NCBI GenBank assembly: GCA_000169355.1
Contig: AAXX01000004.1
Span: 1 to 64,000 of the forward strand
Direction of reading: 5' to 3'
Origin: Flavobacteria bacterium BAL38
GTDB taxonomy: Bacteria; Bacteroidota; Bacteroidia; Flavobacteriales; Flavobacteriaceae
DNA length: 64,000 bases
Shown: positions 44,947 to 64,000 of the stretch, piece by piece
Layout: every line of letters begins with the position of its first letter
Numbering within the stretch: the first letter of the stretch is position 1
Notes under the pieces: generated by a model
What the model was told of the DNA's origin: nothing
Databases searched by the model: none
Seen by the model: only the letters and a program-made list of their open reading frames with translations
Made by a program: the position numbers and the translations under genes

Positions 44947-46428
44947 TTATTGAGGATTGGTTTTAGAAACTAAATAATTCATGTAAATCTTGTTTGAAAT
45001 ATTGTCTTCTAAAATTTCTTTTTTTATGATTTTCTTATAGGTGTTTTTAAATTCAATAGTTTCGTTTTTTGAATAGGGATTTTCAGAAATTTGAATCATT
45101 AATTCAATAATTTTTTTCTCAATATAATTTAATTTGAACACTTTTTTATACTTTTTATTGAATGCATTATAATTATGAAGAACTAATTTGTAATTTTTTA
45201 ATTCATAATGAATAATCATATTTAAAATCTCAGTTTTTATGAATGATTTTGGTCGTTCATCTAGTTTAAATTCGTTTAAAATTAAGTTTACATACTTTAA
45301 ACTTTGAGATAAATTTTTATTAATAAGATGAATGCAAGCAAATTGATAATAGATTCCAATGAAATAATACGGTTCTATATTGTACTTGTTTTCTTTTAAA
45401 GATTTTATAACAATTTGCATTATTTTCGTTCCTTCTTCAAAATTATTATTAAAGATTAAGAATTCTAATTCAGAGTGATGTGTATGGAAAAATATACGCT
45501 CTTTTGCAACGTTCTTTTGAAAATCTAAAATATTCTCAAAACTACGTAAAGCTTCAATTTTATTGTGAAATGTAATATCGTCACTCTTTTTATAAATATC
45601 AATAATTCTAGTGTAAACAGAAATATAATCTAAAGGATTTTCTTCTTTATAAAAAGGATTAAGATCAAAGACTTCAATGGTTTTTTCTAAATTAATGGTT
45701 TCTTTATCTTTATCTTGTAGAATATTAAAATAATTTGCAATAGTTAAAAAATAAAATATTTTCGATTGAACAGAATGGAGTTCAAATCCATCTCTTTTAA
45801 AAATAGGATTCCCTATAATAGAATCAAATTCTTCAATAATTTTATCAAAAGGCATTTTACCTACATTATTTTTTAAAAAGTAGCTATGATAATATAAATC
45901 CGTAATTTCTCTATTCTCTATGATATAGTTAAAATAGGAGTCAATTTTTTCATTTACCGACATAGCTCCATAAAATCCTTTAGAATATCCCATACATTTT
46001 TTTTCCCAGTTGAGAAGTTCTAAAATAAGAATTTCGTTTTCATTTTTAAGACTTAGTTTTTTGGCTTTTCTAATGATCTTTAAACATTCGTCATACAAAC
46101 CTTTATAAAATAAAATTTCTACTGATTTTATATGATTTTGAAGTTTTAAACTTATAGTTTTATCATGATGAAATTCATTTAATGATCTAAGAATTATTTT
46201 GTTTAAATAATTTATATCATATGAAATGTTTTTATCAGAATAATCTTGTTCTTTTACATGTTTTTTTAACGTTTCTTCATTAATTATATCATTAATATTA
46301 ATAATGTTAAAAAGTAGTAGGTATTTATTCTGACTTCCAAAAATATTTTTATTAATAAATATTTTAAAGTATCTTTTTTCGTTCATAGACATTGATTCTA
46401 TGATTTTTTTACATTCTTCTATGATCAT
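44947..46428 (-). CDS. Unrecognised helical protein divergent from the surface-protein block
   Basis: 493 residues, lysine-, glutamate- and isoleucine-rich, with no signal peptide, so presumably cytoplasmic. It starts MIIEECKKIIESMSMNEKRYFKIFINKN and continues as many short alpha-helices with TPR-like spacing (KSVEILFYKGLYDECLKIIRKAKKL, YYFIGIYYQFACIHLINKNLSQSLKYVNLILNEF). No HTH, kinase or other catalytic motif is visible. I do not recognise the family; similar TPR-like proteins appear beside surface-protein genes in flavobacteria, from memory and uncertain. Its base composition is even more AT-rich than its neighbours. The 111-bp gap to the next gene is shared, so the two may be coregulated. 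Confidence 0.72.
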   Translation of the reverse strand: MIIEECKKIIESMSMNEKRYFKIFINKNIFGSQNKYLLLFNIININDIINEETLKKHVKEQDYSDKNISYDINYLNKIILRSLNEFHHDKTISLKLQNHIKSVEILFYKGLYDECLKIIRKAKKLSLKNENEILILELLNWEKKCMGYSKGFYGAMSVNEKIDSYFNYIIENREITDLYYHSYFLKNNVGKMPFDKIIEEFDSIIGNPIFKRDGFELHSVQSKIFYFLTIANYFNILQDKDKETINLEKTIEVFDLNPFYKEENPLDYISVYTRIIDIYKKSDDITFHNKIEALRSFENILDFQKNVAKERIFFHTHHSELEFLIFNNNFEEGTKIMQIVIKSLKENKYNIEPYYFIGIYYQFACIHLINKNLSQSLKYVNLILNEFKLDERPKSFIKTEILNMIIHYELKNYKLVLHNYNAFNKKYKKVFKLNYIEKKIIELMIQISENPYSKNETIEFKNTYKKIIKKEILEDNISNKIYMNYLVSKTNPQ

Positions 46429-46539: not shown

Positions 46540-49500
46540 ATGAAAATAAAATTACTCTCTCTTAAAACATGTTTATTTTTATTCGTTTTTACTTTAAGTG
46601 GAAATGCTTTTGCAACAGATTATTTTGTAAACAATGCGCTTACAGCTGATGATGTTTATACAACTGCTGCTGGGAATAATGCAAATAGTGGTTTGACAGC
46701 AGCATTGCCTAAAGCTACTTTAGCAGCTGCTATAAGTGCAGCTTCAAATGGGGACAGAATATTTGTTGATTATGGAGAATATAATGAAGTAGGTTTAAAT
46801 ATTAACAAATCAGTAGAAATTATTGGTTTAGGCGAAGAGTTGACAGTTTTTAAACGTACATCTGGAGTAAATAGATGGGGTGTAGTTTCAGCTAGTAATG
46901 TTAAAATTTCTAAATTAACTATCACAAATTATAATTTGGCAAGTGATGGAATTGCTCTTTCTATTACATCTGGAACTGAAATTGAGTTTAATAGAGTTCT
47001 TGTATACGCTAATATTGGTAGTGCAGGTCAAGGTGCTGTATTGGTTTCTGGTGCTGCTACTAGTGTAACATTTAGAAATTCAGGAAGTCCTTGTAATCGT
47101 ATATTGTCTGCCAATTATGGAGGAGGCTATAAAATTGTTGGTTCTACGGTTGTATTTGATAATTGCAGTATTAATAACAATGTTGTAACTTCTTTCAATG
47201 GAGGAGGACTAAGAGTTGAAGGCACCACCGCTAATGTAACTATAAATAAATGTACATTTGATGATAATTCCTCACAAGCAGGAGGAGGTATGTGCATAGT
47301 TGCAGGTACCGTAAATATTAATAATTCTTGTTTTACTGGAAATATAGCAGCAGGAAACTCTAACATAGATGGAGGAGGAGCAATTTTTATTCAGCCTGGA
47401 GCGTTAACAAATGTCAATATAAGTAATACTAGTTTTACAAACAATCAAGCAAATAATGCAAGTGCAGATGGTGGAGCTATAAGTGTAAAAAACACAAGTG
47501 GTGTTACTTGTAATATTAATTTTACAACATGTTCTTTTACTACTAATAGTTGTGCAGATAGAGGCGAAGATATTTATTTTGATCAAAGTTTTTCACCAAC
47601 ATTTAATGTCACTTTTAAAAACAATACTTTTTTTACAGTATATAGTGGAACTCAAGTAAATATACATAACGTAGATTTTCCTGCGGCATCAATTAAATTT
47701 GAAGGTTTACTAACTCCTACAGGAACAAGTGGAAATGGTGATATTGTTGCATCTCCAAATGGAGTTTCAATTGATAAACCAGAAATGTCCGGAGCATTTA
47801 CAGAGTCATCTTCTAGTTTACCAACTTCATTACCTCTTACAACTTGTATTGATCGTTTTGATGGAGTTTGTGGAACAGCATCTGCAACAATAACTTGTGT
47901 TACTGAAAATAAATGGGACGGTTCTACATGGTCTAAAGGTACTCCAACTATTTTCCAACATGTTATTTTAAATGCTAATTACAATACACAAACCAATGGT
48001 AATATAAACGCATGTCAAATGACAGTTAAGTCGGGTGTTACACTTGATATTGTTGACGATACTAATGGAACTTATGTATATGTTGTAAATTCTATATTTA
48101 ATAATGGTACAATTAATGTTACTTCTAAAGCTAATTTAGTGCAGGTTAACCATCCATTAGATTTAAATGATGAGCCAATTGCTACACCAAATATTAATTT
48201 CACAAAAAATACAGGAAACAAAATAAGATGGGATTATGTTTATTGGTCTAAACCAGTAAGCAATTCAATTCTTCCAGTATTTAATTCAAAATTTGATATC
48301 AAATATTATTGGGATCCAGATTTTTGTGTTAATGGTGTTAATTTTAGTTATGAAGGTTGGAGAAGTTTAGTTAGTGAACCAACAATAGGTACAGGATTTA
48401 TTACTAGAGTCAAATCATCAGCAGGAACTACACCAACTAATATAACTTTAAATTATTCTGGCACTTCAAATAATGGTGACTATACAGCAATTATTAAATA
48501 TTACGATACAGAACATAATGCTTTTAGAAACTTCACATTACTAGGAAATCCATATCCAGGCGCAATTAATTTTCAAAATTTTTATAACGATAATCAAGAT
48601 AAAATTTATGGCACTGTATATTTATGGTCAGCAAATACTCCATATCCTGGAACGGGACTTTATCAACAAGCGGATTATGCCTCTTTCAATTTAACAGGTG
48701 GAGTTGGTGTGCCAGGTGCTTCTTCACAATCTCCTAACGGATTATTGCCTAATGGTTATATTGCTTCTGCGCAAGGTTTTATGGTGCGAGCTAAAGTTAG
48801 TGGTACCGTATTGTTTACAAATTCTCAACGAACAAAAGATATACCGAGTAATAATCAATTTTACAGAGGTGTAAGTCAAGAAAAAGATAGATTTTGGTTA
48901 CGTTTATTAGACTCAAATGGGAAATATAATGAATTGCTAATTGGATATATTAAAGAGGCTACGAATGATTTTGATGAAGCATACGATGGACCAATTAATT
49001 CTCTTTCCAGAATTAAATTTTATTCTGTTTTAGGAAATGAAAAATTAATTATTCAGGGTAGAGGTGAATTTGTTGAAACGGATAAAGTGTTGGTAAATTA
49101 TTCAATTACGAATCCAACTTCAATGTTAACAATAAGTTTAAATAAAAAAGAAGGTATTTTTAACACCCAAAAAATATATTTATTTGATAAAAAATTAAAC
49201 TTTTATCATGATTTAACCCAGTCAGATTATTTCTTTTATGAAGATGGTACTCAGGATAGATTTGAAATTGTTTACAAGTTAAATAAAGATGATATTAATG
49301 AAAATATTTCAGATGAAACTTCTGTAATAGCCTTCTTAAATAATGGATTGCTAAGTATTGAAAGTAATATTAATATTTCAAAAGTTGAATTATATGATGT
49401 TACTGGAAAAATAATTTTCATTAATGAAATTAATAATACCTCACAATTTTTTCATAAAAACATTGCTGTTTCAAACTGCGTTTATATTCTAAACGTGGTT

Positions 49501-49542
49501 TGCGAAAATGGAGTTAAAAAATCTATAAAAATTTTAAATTAA
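46540..49542 (+). CDS. Parallel beta-helix surface protein with T9SS type-C-like sorting tail
   Basis: 1000 residues. A signal peptide (to about residue 26, ending AFA) is followed by a right-handed parallel beta-helix (about 40-430): repeated short strands and Asn ladders (FDNCSINNNVV, VTINKCTFDDNSSQAGGGM, VNINNSCFTGNIAAG). A globular region with YWDPDFCVNGVNF and LLGNPYPGAINFQNFY (about 460-760) and a region like SRIKFYSVLGNEKLIIQGRGEF follow. The last 75 residues (VELYDVTGKIIFINEIN to KKSIKILN) form an Ig-like T9SS sorting domain resembling type C. The protein is thus predicted to cross the outer membrane through type IX secretion and stay on or leave the surface. It is separated by 12 bp from the next cargo gene. 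Confidence 0.83.
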   Translation: MKIKLLSLKTCLFLFVFTLSGNAFATDYFVNNALTADDVYTTAAGNNANSGLTAALPKATLAAAISAASNGDRIFVDYGEYNEVGLNINKSVEIIGLGEELTVFKRTSGVNRWGVVSASNVKISKLTITNYNLASDGIALSITSGTEIEFNRVLVYANIGSAGQGAVLVSGAATSVTFRNSGSPCNRILSANYGGGYKIVGSTVVFDNCSINNNVVTSFNGGGLRVEGTTANVTINKCTFDDNSSQAGGGMCIVAGTVNINNSCFTGNIAAGNSNIDGGGAIFIQPGALTNVNISNTSFTNNQANNASADGGAISVKNTSGVTCNINFTTCSFTTNSCADRGEDIYFDQSFSPTFNVTFKNNTFFTVYSGTQVNIHNVDFPAASIKFEGLLTPTGTSGNGDIVASPNGVSIDKPEMSGAFTESSSSLPTSLPLTTCIDRFDGVCGTASATITCVTENKWDGSTWSKGTPTIFQHVILNANYNTQTNGNINACQMTVKSGVTLDIVDDTNGTYVYVVNSIFNNGTINVTSKANLVQVNHPLDLNDEPIATPNINFTKNTGNKIRWDYVYWSKPVSNSILPVFNSKFDIKYYWDPDFCVNGVNFSYEGWRSLVSEPTIGTGFITRVKSSAGTTPTNITLNYSGTSNNGDYTAIIKYYDTEHNAFRNFTLLGNPYPGAINFQNFYNDNQDKIYGTVYLWSANTPYPGTGLYQQADYASFNLTGGVGVPGASSQSPNGLLPNGYIASAQGFMVRAKVSGTVLFTNSQRTKDIPSNNQFYRGVSQEKDRFWLRLLDSNGKYNELLIGYIKEATNDFDEAYDGPINSLSRIKFYSVLGNEKLIIQGRGEFVETDKVLVNYSITNPTSMLTISLNKKEGIFNTQKIYLFDKKLNFYHDLTQSDYFFYEDGTQDRFEIVYKLNKDDINENISDETSVIAFLNNGLLSIESNINISKVELYDVTGKIIFINEINNTSQFFHKNIAVSNCVYILNVVCENGVKKSIKILN

Positions 49543-49554
49543 CAAGTTAGTAAA

Positions 49555-52500
49555 ATGAAAGTAAATTTCAGAATAGTTTTAGTGTCATTTATATTGACTT
49601 TGAGTATGTTTAACTCATTTGCTCAAATTACAATTAATAATACATTATATACGCCAACTCAATTAGTAGATGGGGTTTTAGTTCCTTCAACTAGTGGTAC
49701 AGTAATTTCAAATGTTCAATTTAGAGGAGTTTATAATAATTCTTCCCGATACCAAGTTGGTTATTTTTCTACAGCAACTACTACCTTGGCACAAATGGGT
49801 TTTTCTAATGGTATTGTTTTAACTACAGGAAATACATCAACAATTCCACTTGCTTTAGGTTCAAATCCTAGAGCATCACAAATGGCTACAGCATATACTT
49901 CTGGGACACCTGGAGAGTTAAGACAAACAGGAACACCAGCTCCACCAATAATTCAAGATTTAGATGTTTTAGCTGGTGCAAGTAATTATTTCAATGGTGC
50001 AATTTTAGAGTTTGATTTTGTACCAGTTGAAAATTCGGTTTCATTTAGATATGTTTTTGGATCAGAAGAATACAGTGATAATTCAGGATTTATAAATTAT
50101 CAATGTTCTACTTATAATGATAAATTTGGATTTTTAATTAGTGGGCCAGGCATTGTTGGTGGTCAAGGATTTTCAAATAATGCTAGAAATATTGCACGTT
50201 TAGGAAATGGCTCTGAAGTTTCTATTAACTCGGTAAATTCTGGTGTTGTAGGATCAAGTGGAGGTGCTCCTAGTGCGGCTAATTGTTTAGCTGCAAATGC
50301 TGCATGGGTACAAAATACTCCAACGGCTGAATATTTAGGAACTATTGATGGTACACAATTAAATGGAAATACTCGAATTCTAACAGCAAGTCAAACCGGT
50401 TTAACTCCAGGTCAAACGTATCATATTAAACTTATAATTACTGATGTAGGTGATGCTACTTATGACAGTGTTGTGTATATAGAAGCAGGAAGTTTTACTA
50501 CAGAATTTACTTGTGATGCAGGTCCGGATCAAGCTTTATGTAATATTACATCCACTACTTTAGCTGCTGTATCACCAGCAACTGGGACATGGAGTGTTGT
50601 TTCTGGTTCTGGAACTTTTGTTTCTAATACTAATCCAAATACCGTAGTTAATGGTCTTTCTACTGGTGCAAATGTATTTAGATGGACTGCTTCAGATTTA
50701 TCTTGTACTTCAGATGTTACAATTATCGTTAATCCAAATGTAACACCAACCTTTGCTGCAGTTGCACCAATTTGTTCAGGCGCTACTTTATCTGCGTTGC
50801 CAACGACTTCTACTAATGGAATCAACGGAACTTGGTCTCCAGCCCTAAACAACACAACAACTACTACCTACACATTTACACCAACAGCAGGTCAATGTGC
50901 TACAACAACTACTTTAACAATTACTGTTAATCCAAATGTAACACCAACTTTTGCTGCGGTTGCACCAATTTGTTCAGGCGCTACTTTATCTGCTTTACCA
51001 ACGACTTCTACTAATGGAATCAACGGAACGTGGTCACCAGCCCTAAACAACACAACAACTACTACTTACACATTTACACCAACAGCCGGTCAATGTGCTA
51101 CAACAACAACATTAACTATAACAGTTAATCCAACTCCAGTATTAACTGTCTCTTGTGGTGTATCAACAGCTTCAAGTGTTACGTTTAATTGGAATTCTAT
51201 TGCTGATGCTACAAGTTTTAGTTATTCTTATTCTGTAGATGGAGGACCAGCTGTAACAGGTTCTTTATCTAATGCAACGACAACATTTACAATTAATAGT
51301 TTAGCTGCAGGTCAAAATGTAAGTATAACTATTACGCCAGTTGGAAGTCTTTGTGGACAACCAGCAACATCAAATTGTGTTTCATCAAATTGTCCTACAC
51401 CAATAGTTGATACAGTTGGAAATATTTCTGCTTGTTCAAATGCTACTATTTCAGCAATTAACTTTACAAGCCCATCAGCAGGGGTTACTTTTACTTGGAC
51501 AAATACAAATACTTTAATAGGTCTAGGTACAAGTGGAGTTGGTAATATTCCATCATTTACTGCTGCCAATGTAGCAACGCAACAAGTTGCAACAATAGCA
51601 GTAACTGCCAATGATGGTGCGTGTTCAGGACCTTCAATGTTCTTTACAATTACTGTTAATCCAAATGTGACACCAACTTTTGCAGCTGTTTCACCAATAT
51701 GTTCAGCCGCTACTTTATCAGCGTTGCCAACGACTTCTACTAATGGAATCAACGGAACGTGGTCGCCAGCCCTAAACAATACAACAACTACAATTTATAC
51801 GTTTACACCAACTGCAGGTCAATGTGCTACAACAACAACATTAACAATTACCGTTAATCCAAATGTAACACCAACTTTTGCAGCTGTTTCACCAATATGT
51901 TCAGGCGCTACTTTATCAGCTTTGCCAACGACTTCTATTAATGGAATCAACGGAACGTGGTCGCCAGCCTTAAACAACACAACAATTACAATTTATACGT
52001 TTACACCAACAGCAGGACAGTGTGCTACTAATACGACTTTAACAATTACTGTTAATCCAAATGTAACACCAACTTTTGCTGCAGTTGCACCAATTTGTTC
52101 AGGCGCTACTTTATCAGCGTTGCCAACGACTTCTACTAATGGAATCAATGGATCGTGGTCACCAGCCTTAAACAATACAGCTACTACAACTTATACGTTT
52201 ACACCAACAGCAGGACAATGTGCTACAACAACAACATTAACAATTACCGTTAATCCAAATGTAACACCAACTTTTGCTGCAGTTGCACCAATTTGTTCAG
52301 GCGCTACTTTATCAGCGTTACCAACGACTTCTACTAATGGAATCAACGGAACTTGGTCTCCAGCCCTAAACAACACAACAACTACTACCTACACATTTAC
52401 ACCAACAGCAGGTCAATGTGCTACAACAACTACTTTAACAATTACTGTTAATCCAAATGTAACACCAACTTTTGCTGCGGTTGCACCAATTTGTTCAGGC

Positions 52501-54117
52501 GCTACTTTATCAGCGTTGCCAACGACTTCTACTAATGGAATCAACGGATCTTGGTCTCCAGCATTAGATAATATGGTAACCACAACTTACACCTTTACTC
52601 CATTAGCTGGTCAATGTGCTACAAATACAACTTTAACGATTACTGTTAATCCAAATGTAACACCAACTTTTGCTGCAGTTGCACCAATTTGTTCAGGCGC
52701 TACTTTATCAGCGTTGCCAACGACTTCTACTAATGGAATAAATGGAACTTGGTCGCCAGCCCTAAACAATACAACAACTACAATTTATACGTTTACACCA
52801 ACAGCAGGACAATGTGCAACTAATACGACTTTAACGATTACTGTTAATCCAAATGTAACACCAACTTTTGCTGCAGTTGCCCCAATTTGTTCAGGCGCTA
52901 CTTTATCAGCTTTGCCAACGACTTCTACTAATGGAATCAATGGAACGTGGTCACCAGCCTTAAACAATACAGCTACTACAACTTATACCTTTACACCAAC
53001 AGCAGGACAATGTGCTACAACAACAACATTAGCAATTACCGTTGATCCAAATGTAACACCAACTTTTGCTGCAGTTGCCGCAATTTGTTCAGGCGCTACT
53101 TTATCAGCGTTACCAACGACTTCTACTAATGGAATCAATGGATCGTGGTCTCCAGCATTAGATAATATGGTAACTACAACTTACACCTTTACTCCATTAA
53201 CTGGTCAATGTGCTACAAATACGACTTTAACGATTACTGTTAATCCAAATGTAACACCAATCTTTGCTGCAGTTGCACCAATTTGTTCAGGCACTACTTT
53301 ATCAGCGTTGCCAACGACATCTACTAATGGAATCAACGGAACTTGGTCTCCAGCCCTAAACAATACAACAACTACTACTTACACATTTACACCAACAGCA
53401 GGTGAATGTGCTACAACAACAACATTAACGATTACCGTTACTCCAAATGTAACACCAACTTTTACTGCAGTTGCTCCAATTTGTTCAGGCGCTACTTTAT
53501 CAGCTTTGCCAACGACTTCTACTAATGGAATAAACGGAACATGGTCTCCAACATTGGATAATACGGCAACGACAACTTACACTTTTACACCAACAGCAGG
53601 TCAATGTGCTACTGTAACAACAATGACGATAATTGTGAATGAAACACCAGTTGTTTCTATTACTCATGGTTGTAATGGATTAGATTATGAATTAAATGCA
53701 TCAGAAACTTTAAATGCTACATATCAATGGTTTAATAGTAATGGTGATTTAATAGGAACATCCTCTAATATAGTTATTACAGATTCAGACACCTATGAGA
53801 TTCAAGTTACTTTAAATGGATGTATGTCAAGTGATTTTGTAACAATCAGTAATACATTTTGTTTAATTCCAAAAGGTATTTCACCAAATAATGATGGAGA
53901 TAATGACACTTGGGATCTTTCAAATTTAAATGTTGAAAAAGCTCAGATTTTTAATCGCTATGGTATGGAGGTTTATAGTCAGAATAATTATACTAACCAA
54001 TGGGATGGAACTACAGATTCTGGAGATGAATTGCCATCAGCAACCTATTATTATGTACTAACATTTATAAACGGAACAGTTAAAACAGGATGGGTTTATT
54101 TAAACAGATTAAATTAA
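49555..54117 (+). CDS. Repeat-rich T9SS surface protein: choice-of-anchor L, 12 repeats, gliding-type C-terminus
   Basis: 1520 residues. A signal peptide (about 1-24, ending FAQ) is followed by a choice-of-anchor L domain (about 30-320) with FRYVFGSEEYSDNSGF and its NDKFGFLISGP block. A first Ig/PKD-like unit precedes twelve near-identical 66-residue repeats (PNVTPTFAAVAPICSGATL type); a roughly 530-bp different insert (about residues 525-700) separates repeats 2 and 3. The C-terminus (about 1435-1520) reads ISPNNDGDNDTWDLSNL...IFNRYGMEVY...WDGTTDSGDELPSATYYYVL, the gliding-motility-associated type B sorting domain. This predicts export by T9SS and cell-surface display. Each repeat has a Cys pair (PIC and GQCA). 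PorP/SprF follows at 54129. Confidence 0.92.
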   Translation: MKVNFRIVLVSFILTLSMFNSFAQITINNTLYTPTQLVDGVLVPSTSGTVISNVQFRGVYNNSSRYQVGYFSTATTTLAQMGFSNGIVLTTGNTSTIPLALGSNPRASQMATAYTSGTPGELRQTGTPAPPIIQDLDVLAGASNYFNGAILEFDFVPVENSVSFRYVFGSEEYSDNSGFINYQCSTYNDKFGFLISGPGIVGGQGFSNNARNIARLGNGSEVSINSVNSGVVGSSGGAPSAANCLAANAAWVQNTPTAEYLGTIDGTQLNGNTRILTASQTGLTPGQTYHIKLIITDVGDATYDSVVYIEAGSFTTEFTCDAGPDQALCNITSTTLAAVSPATGTWSVVSGSGTFVSNTNPNTVVNGLSTGANVFRWTASDLSCTSDVTIIVNPNVTPTFAAVAPICSGATLSALPTTSTNGINGTWSPALNNTTTTTYTFTPTAGQCATTTTLTITVNPNVTPTFAAVAPICSGATLSALPTTSTNGINGTWSPALNNTTTTTYTFTPTAGQCATTTTLTITVNPTPVLTVSCGVSTASSVTFNWNSIADATSFSYSYSVDGGPAVTGSLSNATTTFTINSLAAGQNVSITITPVGSLCGQPATSNCVSSNCPTPIVDTVGNISACSNATISAINFTSPSAGVTFTWTNTNTLIGLGTSGVGNIPSFTAANVATQQVATIAVTANDGACSGPSMFFTITVNPNVTPTFAAVSPICSAATLSALPTTSTNGINGTWSPALNNTTTTIYTFTPTAGQCATTTTLTITVNPNVTPTFAAVSPICSGATLSALPTTSINGINGTWSPALNNTTITIYTFTPTAGQCATNTTLTITVNPNVTPTFAAVAPICSGATLSALPTTSTNGINGSWSPALNNTATTTYTFTPTAGQCATTTTLTITVNPNVTPTFAAVAPICSGATLSALPTTSTNGINGTWSPALNNTTTTTYTFTPTAGQCATTTTLTITVNPNVTPTFAAVAPICSGATLSALPTTSTNGINGSWSPALDNMVTTTYTFTPLAGQCATNTTLTITVNPNVTPTFAAVAPICSGATLSALPTTSTNGINGTWSPALNNTTTTIYTFTPTAGQCATNTTLTITVNPNVTPTFAAVAPICSGATLSALPTTSTNGINGTWSPALNNTATTTYTFTPTAGQCATTTTLAITVDPNVTPTFAAVAAICSGATLSALPTTSTNGINGSWSPALDNMVTTTYTFTPLTGQCATNTTLTITVNPNVTPIFAAVAPICSGTTLSALPTTSTNGINGTWSPALNNTTTTTYTFTPTAGECATTTTLTITVTPNVTPTFTAVAPICSGATLSALPTTSTNGINGTWSPTLDNTATTTYTFTPTAGQCATVTTMTIIVNETPVVSITHGCNGLDYELNASETLNATYQWFNSNGDLIGTSSNIVITDSDTYEIQVTLNGCMSSDFVTISNTFCLIPKGISPNNDGDNDTWDLSNLNVEKAQIFNRYGMEVYSQNNYTNQWDGTTDSGDELPSATYYYVLTFINGTVKTGWVYLNRLN
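50731..51126 (+). repeat. 198-bp tandem repeats, block 1 (2 units)
   Basis: Two in-frame units of 198 bp (66 residues), starting with AATCCAAATGTAAC and nearly identical to each other, including many synonymous positions. They are separated from the main block by about 530 bp of unrelated coding sequence. Confidence 0.95.
51658..53637 (+). repeat. 198-bp tandem repeats, block 2 (10 units)
   Basis: Ten units of exactly 198 bp (1980 bp) continue the block 1 sequence type. Variants recur in order: units ending GQCATNT, units with TATTTY, and units with LDNMVTTTYTF appear twice (units 7 and 10, with similar neighbours before them), pointing to duplication of multi-unit blocks. The last unit (53440 on) is the most diverged. 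Confidence 0.95.
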
Positions 54118-54128
54118 AAGCAAGTAAG

Positions 54129-55060
54129 ATGAAAGATAGAATTATTCAAGTTGTTATTTTATTTATAGGTGTAGTTGCTTTTGCACAACAAGATCCCCAT
54201 TACACACAATACATGTATAATATGAGTGTAATGAATCCGGCCTATGCGGGTAGTAAAGATAATTTATCTATGGGATTATTATACAGAAAGCAATGGGTTG
54301 AGATTGAAGATGCGCCTACTACAGGTACTCTTTTTTGGTCACGCTCCAGTTGGCAAGAAATGTAGGATTAGGTTTGAGTTTTATCTCAGACAAGATTGGT
54401 CCTGTTGAGGAGAACAATGTTTATGGTGATTTTTCGTATACATTAAATTTAGGAGGCGAACATAAGTTGGCCTTTGGATTAAAAATGGGATTAACTTTTC
54501 ATAATGTAGGATTGTATAGTGATATTAATTACACATTACCACAACCTACCGATCCTGCTTTTAGTGAAGATATTAGCAATACCTATTTTAATTTAGGATC
54601 TGGATTTTTCTATTATACTAACAAGTATTATTTAGGATTATCAGTTCCAAATATGATGCGATCTAAGCATTTGGATATTCAACGTACCGGAGATCAGTTA
54701 GAATTTGGTTCAGAGGTATCGCATTATTTTTTAACAGGAGGGTATGTTTTTGATATTAATGATACGGTTAAGTTCAAGCCTTTTTTCATGATGAAATCGG
54801 CTTTTGGAGCCCCAACCTCTATAGATTTATCAGCGAATTTCATGTTTAATCAAAAATTTGAGGTTGGTGGTACTTATCGTTTACAAGATAGTTTTGGAGC
54901 TATGATAAATTATGCAGTAACGCCATCTTTACGAATAGGTTATGCATACGATCATATTGTTTCGGATTTGAAAGTAACGACGCCTTCATCACACGAGCTT
55001 ATCTTGTTGTTTGATTTGAACTTCCCGAAGAAAGTATCGAGTTCACCAAGATTCTTCTAA
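54129..55060 (+). pseudogene. PorP/SprF family T9SS membrane protein, frame broken by small indels
   Basis: Two frames make one PorP/SprF protein of about 310 residues. The first (ATG at 54129) has a signal peptide ending AFAQ and QQDPHYTQYMYNMSVMNPAYAGSKDN, with YRKQWVEIEDAPTTGTLF, then stops at 54363. The second carries NVGLGLSFISDKIGPVEENNVYGDFSYTL and the whole barrel to the C-terminal SSSPRFF. Between them a third frame reads GHAPVGK, the expected link. Two one-base insertions (in the T6 run at 54331-54336 and in the AAA near 54357-54360) would explain the break. PorP/SprF proteins are outer-membrane partners of specific T9SS cargo; here the cargo is the 1520-residue protein upstream. 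Either the gene is truly broken or the sequence has two homopolymer errors. Confidence 0.85.
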
Positions 55061-55080: not shown

Positions 55081-56958
55081 ATGAGAAAATTATATATAAC
55101 ATTAAGTTTTGTGATGGTAAGTGGAATACTTAGTGCACAAAATCAATACACAAAAGCAGCAGATAAGTTGTTCGATAGATACGAATACGTTGATGCAGCC
55201 AAAGAATATTTAAAATTAGCAGAAGGTAATAAAGCCGATAGCTACGTTTATAAACAATTAGCAGAAAGCTACTATAATGTTTTTAATACCAAAGAAGCAG
55301 TAAAATGGTATGCTAAAGTAGTAGAGCAGAAGCAAGATGCGGAAACGTATTATAAATACGCTCAAATGCTAAAGGCTGAAGGAAACTTCAACGAATCAGA
55401 CAAACAAATGCAACAATTTGCACAATTGGCTCCTAATGACCAAAGAGCTAAAGCATTTGTAAGTAAACCAAATTATCTTCCAGAATTAAAAGGACAAACT
55501 AAATTATATGATATTGCCAAATCAGATGTAAGTAGTGATAAAACAGACTTTGGAGCTGTACTTACCAATGATAACAATGTATATTTTTCAAGTTCAAGAA
55601 ATACTTCAAGAAAAACTAACGGATGGAACGAAGAGCCATACTTAGATATTTATAAAGCAACGTATAATGCTAATGGCACCATTAGCGATGCAGTAGCAGT
55701 TGAGAATATAAATACGAAATGGCACGATGGACCAGTGAGTATCACAAACGATGGTGCAACAATGTATTACGGCAGCGAGAGTTTTAATGAAAAAGAGTTT
55801 ACAAAAGACAAACCAAAGAATGCAAAATTTGGTAAAATTTATCTTTATAAAGCTACTAAAGAAGGTGATAAATGGGTAAACGCAAAACCACTTCCATTTA
55901 ACAATAAAGCGTATGATGTAAGAAATCCAAGTATTAGTAAAGATGGAAAAACATTGTACTTCTCATCGAACATGCCAGGTGGTTTTGGAGGAGAAGACAT
56001 TTGGAAAGTATCAGTAAACGGAGATGAGTATGGAACACCAGAAAACTTAGGTGCAAAAGTAAATACGGAAGCAAATGAGAGTTTTCCATTCATTACCGAT
56101 GATAATGTGTTGTTTTTCTCATCAAACGGAAAAACAGGTTTTGGAGGATTGGACGTGTTTAAGATGGATTTAAACAAAAGCGATGAAGCAATCAATGTAG
56201 GAGAACCAGTAAATACATCAAAAGATGATTTTGCATTTACATACAATACATCAAAGAAAGTAGGTTTCTTCTCTAGTAACAGAGACGGAGTAGATAACAT
56301 CTACAAAGCAGATCCGATTTGTAATTTTAGAGCAGTAACTACTGTAAGAGATGAAATTACAGGAAAAGAAATTGAAGGTGCTTTAGTCGTTTTAACAGAT
56401 GAAAAACAAAATATTCTATCAAGTTTTACAACTGATATATCTGGAAGAACAGAAACAACATTAAAATGCCTTCCAGTTTATATTAGTTATGCAACAAAAT
56501 CAGGTTATGAGAATAGTAATATTTATAAAGTTGAAATTCCAGATAATGAGTTTGGAATTGATATGACAGTAGATATAACGCTAAAACCAATCATGCCAAT
56601 CATAACAGAAGCAGAAGTAATCTTACAACCAATTTATTTTGAGTTCAATAAAAGCAATATTACAGCAGAAGGCGCTGCAGAGTTAGATAAGTTGGTAGCG
56701 GTTATGAATGAGTATCCAGAAATGGTAATATTCGCTAAATCGCATACTGATAGTAGAGGTAGTGATAGTTACAACATGAAATTATCAGACCGAAGAGCAA
56801 AATCTACTGTTCAATACTTAATTAGCAAAGGCATTGCTAAAGAAAGAATATCAGGACAAGGATTTGGGGAAAGTGAACCAAAAGTAGCTTGCAAATCATG
56901 TACAGAAGAAGAACATGCGCAGAACAGAAGAAGTGAATTCTTAATTGTTAAGAAATAA
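55081..56958 (+). CDS. TPR / PD40 beta-propeller / OmpA peptidoglycan-binding protein
   Basis: 625 residues. A signal peptide (MRKLYITLSFVMVSGILSAQ) is followed by TPR-like helices (about 25-125: AADKLFDRYEYVDAAKEYLKLAEGN and AVKWYAKVVEQK). A PD40/WD40-like propeller (about 155-415) shows repeated blades such as SISKDGKTLYFSSNMPGGFGGEDIW and FITDDNVLFFSSNGKTGFGGLDVF. A carboxypeptidase-regulatory-like beta domain (about 420-500) precedes the OmpA domain (about 510-625) with IYFEFNKSNITAEG, SHTDSRGSDSYNMKLSDRRAKS and GFGESEP. OmpA domains hold peptidoglycan. Proteins of this build sit beside PorP/SprF and T9SS cargo genes, as here, and probably anchor the outer-membrane assembly to the wall. 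Confidence 0.92.
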   Translation: MRKLYITLSFVMVSGILSAQNQYTKAADKLFDRYEYVDAAKEYLKLAEGNKADSYVYKQLAESYYNVFNTKEAVKWYAKVVEQKQDAETYYKYAQMLKAEGNFNESDKQMQQFAQLAPNDQRAKAFVSKPNYLPELKGQTKLYDIAKSDVSSDKTDFGAVLTNDNNVYFSSSRNTSRKTNGWNEEPYLDIYKATYNANGTISDAVAVENINTKWHDGPVSITNDGATMYYGSESFNEKEFTKDKPKNAKFGKIYLYKATKEGDKWVNAKPLPFNNKAYDVRNPSISKDGKTLYFSSNMPGGFGGEDIWKVSVNGDEYGTPENLGAKVNTEANESFPFITDDNVLFFSSNGKTGFGGLDVFKMDLNKSDEAINVGEPVNTSKDDFAFTYNTSKKVGFFSSNRDGVDNIYKADPICNFRAVTTVRDEITGKEIEGALVVLTDEKQNILSSFTTDISGRTETTLKCLPVYISYATKSGYENSNIYKVEIPDNEFGIDMTVDITLKPIMPIITEAEVILQPIYFEFNKSNITAEGAAELDKLVAVMNEYPEMVIFAKSHTDSRGSDSYNMKLSDRRAKSTVQYLISKGIAKERISGQGFGESEPKVACKSCTEEEHAQNRRSEFLIVKK

Positions 56959-57358: not shown

Positions 57359-60300
57359 ATGAAATATATATTCAGCCTCTTTATTTTTATGATAGGAATA
57401 TCTGGATTGGCACAAAACATTTTAATTAGTCAAGGTGGAACAGTAAATGTTTCAGGTGGAGAAGTGTTTTATGATGCTGGAGGTCCTGCGGGAAATGATG
57501 GGAATACTAGTTATACAATTACTTTAAGTCCGGCAACTGCAGGCGAAGCTGTTTGTGTAGATTTTACAAGTTTTATATCAAATGGAAATCTTGAAATTTT
57601 TGACGGTCCAAATACAGCCTCAAGAAATATAGGTACATTAAGAGGTGATTATAGTTTAAATTATAATGCGGGTGGAACTCCTTATCGAACAGGTCAAACG
57701 GGTACGCCAGGTGTACCTGATGTTTTGAGTCCTGGAGTATTTTGTTCTAATAATGCATCAGGTGTATTAACATTCAGATATACGGGTCCTTCAGCTTATG
57801 CAGGATGGGTTGGTCAAGTTATTACTTATAAACAAGCATCTGCAGGATGCACTGTTGGTTTAACGGCTTCTCCAAGTACAATCTGTGTTGGAGGTTCTTC
57901 TCTTTTAAGCGCTACAGGTGTTTTAGGAGTTCCTTTAATGAGTAATGATTTTAATACAAGTACGGTTGGTACAGGTTGGTCTAGTACAGCGTCAGTTTCA
58001 TTTCAAAGTGTTTTAACATGTGAGCCAAATTATGGTTATGCTACAAGCAATACAGATAATTCAATTTTCGTATGGATGCAAAATGCTGCTGCTCCAAGAA
58101 CGTTAGAAACAACTTCTTATGATGTTAGTGGTGGTGGTTATTTAAGTTTTGATTTTAGAGAAGCCTCAGATGATAATGGAGGAAATGGATGTGAAGCTTT
58201 AGATGATAATGAAGGAGTTTATGTACAATATTCTACTGATGGGGGAACTTCTTGGAATAATTTAAAATTAATGTTTCCGAGTGTTGAAAGTAATTTTCCT
58301 TCTGCAGCAAACATTGGTTGTGGTACTTATGTTTATGATTGGAATACAACAACTGTACCGTTACCAGCGGCAGCATTATCAGCAAATACTAAATTTCGTT
58401 GGACGCAGAGACAATCTACTTCTGCAACTCAAGATAGTTGGGGGTTAGATAATGTTAGAATAACAAGATATGCAACTGCTACTTTAACAATTACAGATTT
58501 ATCTACAAATACTGTAATTGCTACTACAACAACACCTTCAACTTCTATATCTGTTTCTCCTGCTGTAACAACTACATATAGAGCAACATTAACTGATGGA
58601 GTTACAACATGTACACAAGATATTACAGTAACAGTAAACGGTGGAACAGCAACAACAATAAATTATGCAGGAAGTCCTTTTTTACCTAATGCAGGGGCTT
58701 CTAATGTTACAGTTACAAACGGACCTGTTTCTGGTAGCTATTCAGCTACCCCTGCTGGTTTAACTATAAATACAACAACAGGACAAGTTACACCTAGTAC
58801 AAGTACACCTGGAACATATACTGTTTCTGTTCCAACTGCTTGTGGAACTGCTACAGCCTCTGTTGTCATTTTGTCTTCAACATGTGCAACATGTGCTACA
58901 CCAAGTTGTCCAGTAATTTCAATGACTACTACTACGGCTGCATTAGGACAAACAGGAATTTCAACTAACTTAGGATTAGCGGGTGACCAGTTTGGTAATG
59001 CGCCTTTAGCGCCAGGAGAAAGTATAACAATATGTGTTCCAGTTACCGTGGTTGCCGGATCAACAATTTTAGGTTTTAAACAGTTAACTTCTTCTAGTCC
59101 TGGAGGATGTGGTAATCCTTTAGAACAAGTAATAACATATCAATTAACTGATTCTTCATGTGGAGCTACAATTCCCCCAAATAGAACAAATGCATCATCT
59201 GTTGCAAGCGGATTTAATCCAGAATGGGATGGATTATCTTCAGGAAATTATGTGCTTTGTTTTACTATGAATGTTACTAGCGGAGCATTATGTTCTTCAG
59301 TAGATATTCAAGGTCTTGGTTACTATAATGTTATACCAGCTGCGGTTCCTTGTCAAGATTATCAAATTCAAATGTATTCTGATGATCTTTTATTAAATCC
59401 AATTACTAAAACAGCTTTTGCTTGTTCAGATGCAGCGGTATTTTTAGGACCAGATACCTTTCCAGTAACATTTGATTCAGGTTTACCATTTAATTCGGTT
59501 AATATTGAAATAGTTGCAAATACGGGTAATTTAAATAATTTAGTTATTTATCGATATAATTCTGCTAATGTTTTAGTAGAGACATTAACAGTTCCTGCTG
59601 GCGGAGTATCTAATAATTATTTTTTACGACCTACTGGTTGCTATTATTCTTTAGATAAAACCAATGTAGCTAGTGGTAATTATACGTATACAATTACAGA
59701 CAACACTTCAGGAGTTGTATTGGCTACTGGAACATGGATAATTACTGCTGGTGCAGAATCTTTAAAAACAGGATTATTGTTTTTCCAAGGAACCGGAAGT
59801 TATTCAGGTCCGGGTGTTTCAAATGGATTTGATCCTGCTCCTGCAGGTTCTGTTGGTGATGATTATACAGATGACAGAGGTATAGGTGTATTTGATCCGC
59901 AAGTTGCAGGAGTAGGTTCTCATACAATTACTTATACTTGGGATAATGGATTAGCTGCACCAAATCATTGTACTTTAACCAGAACGATGAATGTTACAGT
60001 GACAGGTCCAAGTGCACCAATCACAACCAATTTATCAATTTGTTCAGGGCAAACAGCTACCTTAACAGCATCAGCGGTTACAGGTACTGTTAATTGGTAT
60101 ACCGCTTCTTCTGGAGGTAGTTCAATATTTACTGGAAATCCATATACTACTCCAGTTTTAACAGCAGCAACATCCTATTGGGTTTCTCAAACAGTGGGTG
60201 GATGTGAAAGTACAAGAACACAAGTAAATGTTTCAATTACTGCAGGTACACCTGCAACATATACATCTACAGTTGTAAATTGTTCTCCAGGCTCTATTTT

Positions 60301-63300
60301 ATTATCTTCTATATTACCTACCGGTACTACTTTTAATTGGGTAAGTGGTCCTTCTGGTTATACATTTCCTGCAGGTTTTCAAACTCCATTAACTACAAAT
60401 ACTAGTTTAACAGGTTTACCAGCAGGTACTTATTGTGTTGATGTAACTTCTCCAAATTCTTTAGGAGGTGTTGTTACTCAAACTTTATTCACTGAAACTT
60501 TTGAATCAGGATTAGGAAATTGGACTTTAGATAATTCTAATGGACCAAATATTTTTGTACTAAATAATGATTATTTAGGAGGAAGTTGTGTGACAGGATT
60601 AGGAACTTTTACAGTTCCTAATGTTCCAAATCAACCTGCAGCGGTTACATCAAGTCCAAATAGTAATTATTTACATATTAAAGCAACTACAACAACTGGA
60701 GCTACATGCGGACCAGGTTCTGTTAACTTTATTCCAAATAATGCAAATTTTGATGGACAAATATCGGATCAAAAAGCTACTCTAAATACGGTTATCAATA
60801 CTGTTGGAAAATCCAACGTTATTTTTAATTTTTATTGGTTAGCCCAAGGAGAAACAAATGCAAGTGGTTCAGATGATTTTGGTAGTATAGAATACAGTAT
60901 AAACGGAGGAACTACTTGGGTACAAGCTGGAGCCAAACTAAGAAGACAGACAACATGGTTGTCTGATTTTAGAACAGATCCTTTATGGGATAATCAAGCA
61001 AATCTTAGATTTAGAGTAAGATGGCAAAATGATGCTAGTTCAAGTATTGATCCACCAATTTCAATCGATCAAATAGTAATTACTGCTGATGTTACTTCAA
61101 TTGCGTCATGTGGTACTACAGTTCAAGAATGTTTTACAATTTTCCCAACACCAGTAACACCAACTATCACATCAGTTGCCGCTAGTTGTTCTGCTGCAGG
61201 AAGTTCAACAATATCAAATTACAGCGCTTCTAATACATACACATTTACACCAACAGGTCCAACAGTAGGAGCAACAGGTTTAATCTCAGGCATGATTCTA
61301 GGAACAAGTTATACCGTAACAGCAACCAATGGTGGATGTACTTCAGTAGCATCAGCAAGCTTTAGTAATGCTGCTCAATTACCAACGCCAGTAACACCAA
61401 CTATCACATCAGTTGCCGCTAGTTGTTCAGCAGCTGGAAGTTCTACAATATCAAATTACAGCGCATCTAACACGTATGCCTTTACACCAGCAGGACCAAC
61501 AGTAGGAGTTGCCGGAGTAATTTCAGGCATGACAGTTGGAACAAGTTATACCGTAACAGCAACCAATGGTGGATGTACTTCAGTAGCATCAGCAAGCTTT
61601 AGTAACGCTGCACAATTACCAACACCAGCAGTACCAACTATCACATCAGTTGCTGCTAGTTGTTCTGCAGCTGGAAGCTCAACAATATCAAATTACAGCG
61701 CTTCTAACACATACACATTTACACCAGCAGGTCCAACAGTAGGAGCAACAGGAGTAATCTCAGGCATGACAGTTGGAACAAGTTATACCGTAACAGCAAC
61801 CAATGGCGGATGTACTTCAGTAGCATCAGCAAGTTTTAGCAATGCGTCACAATTACCAACACCACTAGTACCAACTATCACATCAGTTGCCGCTAGTTGT
61901 TCTGCTGCAGGAAGTTCTACAATATCAAATTACAGCGCATCTAACACGTATGCATTTACACCAGCAGGACCAACAGTAGGAGTTGCAGGAGTAATTTCAG
62001 GCATGACAGTTGGAACAAGTTATACAGTAACAGCAACCAATGGTGGATGTACTTCAGTAGCATCAGCAAGTTTTAGCAATGCGGCACAATTACCAACACC
62101 AGCAGTACCAACTATCACATCAGTTGCTGCTAGTTGTTCAGCAGCAGGAAGTTCAACAATATCAAATTACAGCGCTTCTAACACATACACATTTACACCA
62201 GCAGGACCAACAGTAGGAGCAACAGGTTTAATATCAGGCATGACAGTTGGAACAAGTTATACCGTAACAGCAACCAATGGTGGATGTACTTCAGTAGCAT
62301 CAGCAAGTTTTAGCAATGCGGCACAATTACCAACACCAGCAGTACCAACTATCACATCAGTTGCTGCTAGTTGTTCAGCAGCTGGAAGTTCTACAATATC
62401 AAATTACAGCGCATCTAACACGTATGCCTTTACACCAGCAGGACCAATAGTAGGAGTTGCAGGAGTAATTTCAGGCATGACAGTTGGAACAAGTTATACA
62501 GTAACAGCAACCAATGGTGGATGTACTTCATTAGCATCAGCAAGTTTTAGTAATGCAGCGCAATTACCAACGCCAGCAGTACCAACTATCACATCAGTTG
62601 CTGCTAGTTGTTCTGCTGCAGGAAGTTCTACAATATCAAATTACAGTGCAACTAATACGTATGCCTTTACACCAGCAGGACCAACAGTAGGAGCAACAGG
62701 AGTAATCTCAGGCATGACAGTTGGAACAAGTTATACCGTAACAGCAACCTATGGAGGATGTACTTCAGTAGCATCAGCAAGCTTTAGTAACGCTGCACAA
62801 TTACCAACACCAGTAACACCAACTATAACATCAGTTGCCGCTAGTTGTTCTGCTGCAGGAAGCTCAACAATATCAAATTACAGTGCAACTAATACGTATG
62901 CATTTACACCAGCAGGACCAACAGTAGGAGTTGCAGGAGTAATCTCAGGTATGACAGTTGGAACAAGTTATACAGTAACAGCAACAAATGGCGGATGTAC
63001 TTCATTAGCATCAGCAAGTTTTAGCAATGCTGCTCAATTGGCAGCACAACCTATTCCAACTATCACATCAGTTGCCGCTAGTTGTTCTGCTGCAGGAAGT
63101 TCTACAATATCAAATTACAGCGCTTCTAACACATACACATTTACACCGGCAGGACCAACAGTTGGAGTTGCAGGAGTAATCTCAGGCATGACAGTTGGAA
63201 CAAGTTATACAGTAACAGCAACCAATGGTGGATGTACTTCAGTAGCATCAGCAAGCTTTAGTAACGCTGCACAATTACCAACACCAGCAGTACCAACTAT

Positions 63301-64000
63301 CACATCAGTTGCCGCTACTTGTTCTGCAGCAGGAAGCTCAACAATATCAAATTACAGCGCATCTAACACATACACATTTACACCAGCAGGACCAACAGTA
63401 GGAGTTGCAGGAGTAATTTCAGGCATGACAGTTGGAACAAGTTATACAGTAACAGCAACCAATGGTGGATGTACTTCAGTAGCATCAGCAAGCTTTAGTA
63501 ACGCTGCACAATTACCAACACCAGCAGTACCAACTATCACATCAGTTGCCGCTAGTTGTTCTGCAGCAGGAAGTTCTACAATATCAAATTACAGCGCTTC
63601 TAACACATACACATTTACACCAGCAGGTCCAACAGTAGGAGCAACAGGTTTTATATCAGGCATGACAGTTGGAACAAGTTATACGGTAACTTCAGGAAAT
63701 GGATTTTGTACATCATTAGCATCTATTCCTTTCGATAACCAAGATATGGGAACACCAACCATCACAAACATATCATATAGTTCAAATATTTGTTCAGTAA
63801 GTTCAACTGATATTGTTTTAAGTAGTGACATTATTGGAACAACTTATACTTGGAGTGCAACGGTATCTAATATTACGGGTACCTATGTTACAAATGGAGA
63901 TGAAACGAATATTAATCAAATAGCAACACTAACAGATACTGAGAATATTGGTACTATTACTATGGTTATAATTCCAAGAGCTAATGGATGCGATGGAACG
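57359..64000 (+). CDS. Giant repeat-rich surface adhesin (3' end beyond window)
   Basis: 2214 codons are visible with no stop; the frame was followed at several checkpoints and stays open to the edge. MKYIFSLFIFMIGISGLAQ is a signal peptide. A CUB-like domain (about 20-160) is followed by a reelin-like/choice-of-anchor J-type jelly roll (about 195-385: YLSFDFREASDDN, GVYVQYSTDGGTSWNNLK, DSWGLDNVRI). Mixed Ig/PKD-like stretches follow, then an Ig_7-type domain (about 885-960: ICSGQTATLTASA, WYTASSGGSSIFTGNPYTTP). A second jelly roll (about 1040-1260, with FETFESGLGNWTLDN split by a Thr) leads to eleven 79-residue repeats (about 1267-2131) and a further Ig-like start. No sorting domain is inside the window, but the relatedness to T9SS cargo upstream predicts one downstream. 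Start chosen from the signal peptide; the region upstream is non-coding. Confidence 0.9.
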   Translation, partial: MKYIFSLFIFMIGISGLAQNILISQGGTVNVSGGEVFYDAGGPAGNDGNTSYTITLSPATAGEAVCVDFTSFISNGNLEIFDGPNTASRNIGTLRGDYSLNYNAGGTPYRTGQTGTPGVPDVLSPGVFCSNNASGVLTFRYTGPSAYAGWVGQVITYKQASAGCTVGLTASPSTICVGGSSLLSATGVLGVPLMSNDFNTSTVGTGWSSTASVSFQSVLTCEPNYGYATSNTDNSIFVWMQNAAAPRTLETTSYDVSGGGYLSFDFREASDDNGGNGCEALDDNEGVYVQYSTDGGTSWNNLKLMFPSVESNFPSAANIGCGTYVYDWNTTTVPLPAAALSANTKFRWTQRQSTSATQDSWGLDNVRITRYATATLTITDLSTNTVIATTTTPSTSISVSPAVTTTYRATLTDGVTTCTQDITVTVNGGTATTINYAGSPFLPNAGASNVTVTNGPVSGSYSATPAGLTINTTTGQVTPSTSTPGTYTVSVPTACGTATASVVILSSTCATCATPSCPVISMTTTTAALGQTGISTNLGLAGDQFGNAPLAPGESITICVPVTVVAGSTILGFKQLTSSSPGGCGNPLEQVITYQLTDSSCGATIPPNRTNASSVASGFNPEWDGLSSGNYVLCFTMNVTSGALCSSVDIQGLGYYNVIPAAVPCQDYQIQMYSDDLLLNPITKTAFACSDAAVFLGPDTFPVTFDSGLPFNSVNIEIVANTGNLNNLVIYRYNSANVLVETLTVPAGGVSNNYFLRPTGCYYSLDKTNVASGNYTYTITDNTSGVVLATGTWIITAGAESLKTGLLFFQGTGSYSGPGVSNGFDPAPAGSVGDDYTDDRGIGVFDPQVAGVGSHTITYTWDNGLAAPNHCTLTRTMNVTVTGPSAPITTNLSICSGQTATLTASAVTGTVNWYTASSGGSSIFTGNPYTTPVLTAATSYWVSQTVGGCESTRTQVNVSITAGTPATYTSTVVNCSPGSILLSSILPTGTTFNWVSGPSGYTFPAGFQTPLTTNTSLTGLPAGTYCVDVTSPNSLGGVVTQTLFTETFESGLGNWTLDNSNGPNIFVLNNDYLGGSCVTGLGTFTVPNVPNQPAAVTSSPNSNYLHIKATTTTGATCGPGSVNFIPNNANFDGQISDQKATLNTVINTVGKSNVIFNFYWLAQGETNASGSDDFGSIEYSINGGTTWVQAGAKLRRQTTWLSDFRTDPLWDNQANLRFRVRWQNDASSSIDPPISIDQIVITADVTSIASCGTTVQECFTIFPTPVTPTITSVAASCSAAGSSTISNYSASNTYTFTPTGPTVGATGLISGMILGTSYTVTATNGGCTSVASASFSNAAQLPTPVTPTITSVAASCSAAGSSTISNYSASNTYAFTPAGPTVGVAGVISGMTVGTSYTVTATNGGCTSVASASFSNAAQLPTPAVPTITSVAASCSAAGSSTISNYSASNTYTFTPAGPTVGATGVISGMTVGTSYTVTATNGGCTSVASASFSNASQLPTPLVPTITSVAASCSAAGSSTISNYSASNTYAFTPAGPTVGVAGVISGMTVGTSYTVTATNGGCTSVASASFSNAAQLPTPAVPTITSVAASCSAAGSSTISNYSASNTYTFTPAGPTVGATGLISGMTVGTSYTVTATNGGCTSVASASFSNAAQLPTPAVPTITSVAASCSAAGSSTISNYSASNTYAFTPAGPIVGVAGVISGMTVGTSYTVTATNGGCTSLASASFSNAAQLPTPAVPTITSVAASCSAAGSSTISNYSATNTYAFTPAGPTVGATGVISGMTVGTSYTVTATYGGCTSVASASFSNAAQLPTPVTPTITSVAASCSAAGSSTISNYSATNTYAFTPAGPTVGVAGVISGMTVGTSYTVTATNGGCTSLASASFSNAAQLAAQPIPTITSVAASCSAAGSSTISNYSASNTYTFTPAGPTVGVAGVISGMTVGTSYTVTATNGGCTSVASASFSNAAQLPTPAVPTITSVAATCSAAGSSTISNYSASNTYTFTPAGPTVGVAGVISGMTVGTSYTVTATNGGCTSVASASFSNAAQLPTPAVPTITSVAASCSAAGSSTISNYSASNTYTFTPAGPTVGATGFISGMTVGTSYTVTSGNGFCTSLASIPFDNQDMGTPTITNISYSSNICSVSSTDIVLSSDIIGTTYTWSATVSNITGTYVTNGDETNINQIATLTDTENIGTITMVIIPRANGCDGT
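61159..63753 (+). repeat. 237-bp tandem repeats (11 units) in the giant adhesin
   Basis: Units start with the TPTITSVAASCSAAGS motif at 61159, 61396, 61633, 61870, 62107, 62344, 62581, 62818, 63055, 63292 and 63529, each exactly 237 bp after the last (79 residues). The eleventh is 225 bp and diverged. Nucleotide identity is very high, including third positions; the pairs TPTGP/TPAGP and GATGLIS/GVAGVIS alternate. Each unit carries conserved Cys (AASCSAA and NGGCTS). Confidence 0.96.

Follow-up and report, generated by a model that had tools for sequence, protein, structure and literature searches.

A 198-bp repeat array in Flavobacterium as the probable stalk of a recombining type IX secretion adhesin

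Do the recurring variants of a tandem array record the duplication of whole blocks of units, or the copying of units from place to place? The question is raised by a repeat gene in a 64,000-nucleotide stretch of contig AAXX01000004.1 of Flavobacteria bacterium BAL38 (the window), whose genome (2.8 Mb, 14 contigs) belongs to the genus Flavobacterium. An earlier note on this DNA described ten units, each exactly 198 bp long, between 51658 and 53637, in which three variant types return in order, and proposed duplication of three- or four-unit blocks. All ten units were borne out at this length, and all are in frame. Our preferred reading, which we consider likely, is that they make up an adhesin stalk which recombines, probably varies in length and can be replaced, the units being kept alike by unequal exchange and gene conversion.

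The host gene (49555-54117, forward strand, as are its parts and the two genes that follow it) encodes a predicted type IX secretion system (T9SS) type B surface protein of 1520 aa, identified from the open-reading-frame listing and from profile domains at both ends. The N-terminal part (49555-50730), composed of a choice-of-anchor L domain (NF038133, aa 47-314, 167 bits in an NCBIfam profile search) and a further short domain, ends at the first repeat, and its sequence is retained where four other genomes carry the syntenic gene. It is followed by a detached pair of 198-bp units, A (50731-50928) and B (50929-51126), a spacer of 531 bp or 177 aa (51127-51657) with no Pfam family above cut-off, and the main array of units U1-U10 (51658-53637), giving 12 copies of the unit in the gene. 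The C-terminal tail (53638-54117), which is also recognised by its identity to the counterparts in two syntenic genes, carries the sorting domain at aa 1438-1518. This domain scores 80.4 bits against PF13585 (CHU_C; cut-off 27) and 57 bits against TIGR04131 (cut-off 35), placing the protein in T9SS type B. A whole-protein scan gave three Pfam families at E ≤0.001, and the SprB repeat family, for which Pfam contains a model, is not among them. The Cep192_D3 match on the whole protein (28.1 bits, cut-off 27) is a sum of weak stretches, none of which passes singly, and was set aside as a generic β-sandwich match, as was Polyketide_cyc2, which lies below its cut-off. Judged by its domains, the repeat protein belongs to a known kind, the T9SS type B cargo proteins.

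The 66-aa units are predicted to be all-β and Ig-like. They are 86-100% identical to unit A in protein, and every unit is distinct by nucleotide. Unit A differs from unit 4 at 3 of 198 positions and, once included, is the nearest relative of that unit; B is identical in protein to both. The differences are mostly synonymous (mean pS 0.291, mean pN 0.049), and since pN/pS is low (0.17), the protein sequence of the unit appears to be under constraint, its likeness kept by selection. A single unit (52252-52449) has no Pfam match at E ≤1, single and triple units reach no Pfam family above cut-off, and a PDB sequence search gave no match at E ≤1. All three variant types recur as described: GQCATNT is found in units 2, 5, 6 and 8, TATTTY in units 3, 7 and 10, and LDNMVTTTYTF in units 5 and 8. 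Their placement around units 4-7 and again around units 8-10 was wrong, the ordered triad standing at units 2-3-5 and 6-7-8.

Comparison of the 12 units shows that they group by recurring type rather than by position. The six closest of the 66 pairs (A/U4, U3/U7, U5/U8, A/U9, B/U4 and U4/U9) are all non-adjacent, and neighbours within U1-U10 stand 23.6 differences apart on average, which is no closer than other pairs are. The longest exact repeat in the gene, a 191-nt tract over the A/B junction (50800-50990), is identical to 52321-52511 over the unit 4/5 junction; identity over the first 62 nt, as in B and U5, is present in 4 of the 66 pairs. The mean distance is 11.5% within the gene and 25.6-34.6% to ten other arrays of the 66-aa unit, with 12/12 units closest to their own array, so that the array is homogenised relative to the others. 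Because the types group without regard to position and the array is homogenised in this way, it is clear that units have been copied to non-adjacent places.

The order of the recurring types, with ten units, is not beyond chance. Against shuffled unit order, the best-lag test gives P=0.45 and the collinear-block score P=0.17, and a sub-unit tract/chain score across unit borders is reached in 186 and 295 of 1600 shuffles, depending on the switching cost (P=0.12-0.18; an initial run used 150 shuffles). Repetition of the lag test with the detached pair placed by distance gives P=0.84. Unit order therefore provides no evidence for blocks: the part of the earlier proposal that concerns variant types and the copying of units stands, with no lag-1 similarity, but its three- or four-unit block duplication is significant in no test.

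A specific form of block duplication nevertheless deserves weight, and we regard it as possible though doubtful. Here, a single 792-bp tandem duplication of units 2-5 (hypothetical source block, 51856-52647), made by unequal crossing-over, would have yielded a copy (hypothetical, units 6-8, 52648-53241) from which one unit was later lost. The mutual nearest pairs among U1-U10 are 3/7 (5 differences of 198), 5/8 (10), 4/9 (12) and 2/6 (15); pairs 2/6, 3/7 and 5/8 are collinear, as this duplication would leave them, and the best-scoring tracts run at lag 4 (unit 2.66 to 4.48) and lag 3 (unit 5.19 to 6.46). However, pair 4/9 is out of line with the other three, unit 4 pairing with unit 9 and detached unit A, both of which lie outside the proposed copy, and variants show no linkage over the junctions between units (P=0.55). 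The non-significant order also weighs against it, to a degree set by the low power of the tests once a unit is lost. The lag test detects a planted intact four-unit copy in 60/60 simulations at each of three divergences, a four-unit copy minus one unit in 3, 0 and 4 of 60, and a three-unit block in 25, 9 and 5 of 60; the tract test detects a copy minus one unit in 3 and 2 of 32.

Exchange inside the units, as opposed to copying of whole units, was assessed by nucleotide and by codon, and mosaicism inside units is moderately supported. A Sawyer-type test of runs common to unit pairs against permuted columns gives P=0.007 by nucleotide, with P=0.063 for the longest single run. Incompatibility between neighbouring sites is lower than in permuted data, the observed value being reached in 0 of 5000 permutations when all 42 sites are used and in 153 of 5000 when each codon contributes a single site. 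The codon-level mosaic test yields 122/5000 (P=0.024) for the 12 units and 496/5000 (P=0.10) for U1-U10 alone. Adjacent changes that share a codon account for part of the signal. Third positions by themselves retain little of it (164 or 519 of 5000), and codons without any amino-acid change retain none (3528 and 4400 of 5000; Sawyer P=0.30). The four-gamete test is failed by 320 of 861 site pairs overall and, when only silent informative sites are paired, by 91 of 171, and the latter failures need either exchange or much recurrent mutation.

The fading of the mosaic tests when only silent codons or only U1-U10 are used would suit a history in which units were copied in the past and then diverged by point mutation alone, none of them being mosaics, and the low pN/pS would fit it as well, selection keeping the proteins alike. 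We judge this history improbable: the one-site-per-codon and codon-level tests on 12 units stay at P ~0.03 and 0.02, the silent four-gamete failures would have to be explained, and the 191-nt tract spans a unit junction. That the assembler collapsed, expanded or misordered the repeats is very unlikely, even though two of the four other genomes (F. cheniae and G082) have contigs that stop within the array and one array holds a 731-nt exact repeat, because the longest exact repeat is only 101 nt inside U1-U10 (191 nt in the whole gene), and the units are in frame, 86-100% identical to A in protein and distinct in nucleotide sequence.

In the preferred reading, that of a recombining adhesin stalk, T9SS would export the protein, and the repeats would form the stalk of a surface-anchored molecule, each 198-bp unit encoding one 66-residue Ig-like domain and the units in series holding the N-terminal domain away from the cell. 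The C-terminal domain, once secreted, would be retained on the cell surface by the PorP/SprF and PorE-like proteins encoded next to it, as suggested by their homologues. Unequal exchange and gene conversion would keep the units alike and shift variant types along the array, and the same processes should alter the unit number; in the longer term, another repeat type may take the place of the whole stalk, with the change at the domain edge. The adhesin role, unequal crossing-over as the process and variation in length within the species are what we infer. A structural model of three units is of moderate quality (pLDDT 79.8, pTM 0.50) and contains β strands only; Foldseek and VIA-align searches with it yield weak β-sandwich matches (best PDB E 0.045). 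Among its best structural neighbours is another large repeat protein, the grappling-hook protein GhpA of Aureispira (PDB 9flw, 9flv and others), a weak match within the range of common arrangements (20-26% identity; for 9flw, Z 5.4 and rmsd 14.1 over 193 residues).

Directly downstream, a PorP/SprF-family outer-membrane protein gene (54090-55060; PF11751 above cut-off in both pieces) is split over two overlapping frames near 54335-54365, a break that may be either a sequencing error or a real pseudogene. This neighbour, though frame-broken, adjoins the repeat gene in the manner of T9SS type B cargo. It is followed by a gene for a PorE-like, OmpA-family periplasmic protein (55081-56958), with PF00691 above cut-off and the best-scoring NCBIfam models, CHU_0125_OmpA and T9SS_PorE, below their curated cut-offs. 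According to the portions of PMC9143113 used here, a chain of binding runs from type B C-terminal domain (CTD) proteins through PorP-like proteins and PorE to peptidoglycan, and PorP-PorE-like complexes are postulated to hold non-mobile type B proteins. The F. johnsoniae SprB/SprF pair, as covered in those portions, resembles the window gene in that a type B CTD protein adjoins a PorP/SprF-family gene. Unlike at sprB, a PorE-like gene follows in the window, which matches the postulate for non-mobile proteins, and, unlike SprB, the window protein has no SprB repeat family among its Pfam matches. Because the gene has both PorP/SprF and PorE-like neighbours, a fixed adhesin seems more likely than a gliding one.

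The syntenic gene was identified in four other genomes: F. cheniae (L029, genome G012), the metagenome-assembled genome M30B46 (L030), LMO8 (L031) and G082 (L050). The search for it matched seven genomes, the source genome of the window included. Not counted as syntenic are the genes of 412-420 aa in other surroundings in G149, G171 and G203, that of G396, which runs into a contig end in surroundings as in G203, and an F. cheniae paralogue (L033). Two upstream window genes adjoin the syntenic gene in 4/4 genomes by tblastn, 46540-49542 at 49-72% identity (matched in one or two pieces) and 44947-46428 at 64-85%. On the downstream side, M30B46 has a PorE-like gene match (69%) behind a PorP/SprF-like gene, and in LMO8 a PorP/SprF-like gene lies at the contig end.

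Identity along these proteins breaks off at the edge of the N-terminal part. Per 30 aa, it is 53-97% from aa 31 to 390 in the four genomes, drops to 13-27% in the 30 aa after aa 390 in all four, and is 7-37% in the following 30. The last 80 aa are again 60-80% identical per 20 aa in M30B46 and LMO8, the two genomes in which they could be read. Between these ends, the stalk of M30B46 comprises twelve 67-aa units, ten of them identical in protein (query included), and that of F. cheniae, cut by a contig end, has a unit like the M30B46 67-aa type (81% over 43 residues). LMO8 has seven 79-aa units like those of the second repeat gene of the window (58/79 identical in one pair), and G082 has four full 80-aa units and a partial one, cut by a contig end. 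At E 1e-8, the 66-aa unit of the window has no match in M30B46 and at most one distant copy in each of the other syntenic genomes (68, 63 and 44% identity), arrays at contig ends being invisible to this search. The 79- and 80-aa types have 37 of 79 positions in common, and the 66-aa unit shares 22-27 of 66 positions with the other types in forced global alignments, so that the four unit types are not wholly unrelated. By this comparison of sequences, the stalk after the N-terminal edge is shown to be a different repeat (67, 79 or 80 aa) in 4/4 syntenic genes, which suggests that it has been swapped for a different repeat over longer times.

More tentatively, with the chances somewhat short of even, the locus may be one at which the entire stalk is swapped precisely at a domain boundary while the display domain and the export and anchor domains stay fixed in synteny; the donors would be further adhesin genes, in this genome or in related ones, and the new stalk would then be homogenised in place. 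If so, stalk type, beyond stalk length, would be a fast-evolving property of these T9SS adhesins. Among the open-access papers listed in our literature searches, judged by titles and the beginnings of abstracts, none was on whole-stalk replacement in syntenic T9SS adhesins. Of all the results, the difference in stalk between syntenic genes most deserves to be pursued. It offers a natural comparison between what a stalk must provide, such as reach and stiffness, and what may vary. As a separate observation, ten of the twelve units of M30B46 (L030, 11169-13560) fall into two nucleotide types that differ at five positions and are intermingled along the array, where a 731-nt stretch is repeated exactly; this points to either very recent expansion or assembly trouble.

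Similar units are widespread in the genus: at E 1e-9, the 66-aa unit is matched in 137 of 249 genomes. For a unit this common and yet without a Pfam match, a dedicated family model would be of use. Eleven regions of relatives were chosen by hand, with long arrays and good scores favoured, and are not a random sample; ten of the 11 hold at least four units of 198 bp. Distances were counted only between units of exactly 198 bp, and L089, with a single unit, was left out of the homogenisation comparison. The units nearest to their own array number 4/19 in L081, which is not homogenised, and 16/16, 20/24, 12/15, 20/20, 5/5, 4/4, 3/4, 14/15 and 3/4 in the other arrays. Similarity between neighbouring units, tested in arrays with at least eight exact units (the window and six of the eleven), is strong in four of the six arrays of relatives (L079, L080, L082 and L083), not significant in L081 and L087, and absent from the window array. 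Both this contrast and the exception of L081 in homogenisation tell against the preferred reading. In L080 and L081, two arrays of the 66-aa unit from this genus, an additional step of 222 bp comes at every seventh position and is seen three times per array; higher-order arrangement therefore does occur in this unit family.

Length-variable repeat stalks are known from the Periscope Proteins, which include SasG, Rib, Sgo_0707 and others; the passages of PMC8201768 and PMC9704523 that we draw on describe them mainly from human-associated bacteria and propose that changes in length arise by recombination and are driven by repeat identity at the DNA level. As characterised in those passages, they combine an N-terminal domain, tandem repeats of more than 50 residues, high DNA identity among repeats and surface attachment, all of which are found or predicted here: the units are of 66 aa with a mean nucleotide distance of 11.5% over 12 units, and attachment is predicted from profile matches to the sorting domain and to the PorP/SprF and PorE-like neighbours. 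Periscope domains also fold one by one and line up as a rod; what bears on this here is the all-β three-unit model of moderate quality, with its weak PDB matches. Unlike them, the window protein has a T9SS type B signal and a host in the Bacteroidota, a phylum that does not appear in the same passages; its unit, taken singly, matches no Pfam family, and its whole stalk differs among related species. At the window locus, a T9SS protein of a Flavobacterium has a Periscope-like arrangement of repeats. Within this genus, a putative gliding-motility protein of F. psychrophilum is likewise built of repeats, and section 3.4 of PMC8400371 gives 35-88 units among isolates. Length variation within the species, which the earlier note had expected, is plausible by this precedent.

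Other adhesin genes of the same genome also bear on the mobility of units. A second large repeat protein gene starts at 57359 and runs off the window (57359-64000); its array at 61145-63742 comprises about eleven 237-bp units. This array and one on contig C14 (297365-301141) have common exact tracts of up to 415 nt, with 0-15 differences of 237 between nearest counterparts, in a partly shuffled order: units 4, 6 and 7 of the 61145 array correspond to C14 units 8, 10 and 11, and units 8 and 9 to C14 units 2 and 3. The two regions rest on an underlying duplication (93% over 4.2 kb). Because identical tracts occur in partly shuffled order, the comparison suggests that repeat units move between adhesin genes at distant loci in this genome. 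On contigs C8 and C14, two further PorP/SprF copies each have an open frame (316 and 314 aa); over 2.2 kb, the C14 region is 97% identical to that of the window. The genome holds at least three cassettes of adhesin, PorP/SprF and PorE-like genes, with PorP/PorE stretches 88% (C8) and 97% (C14) identical to those of the window.
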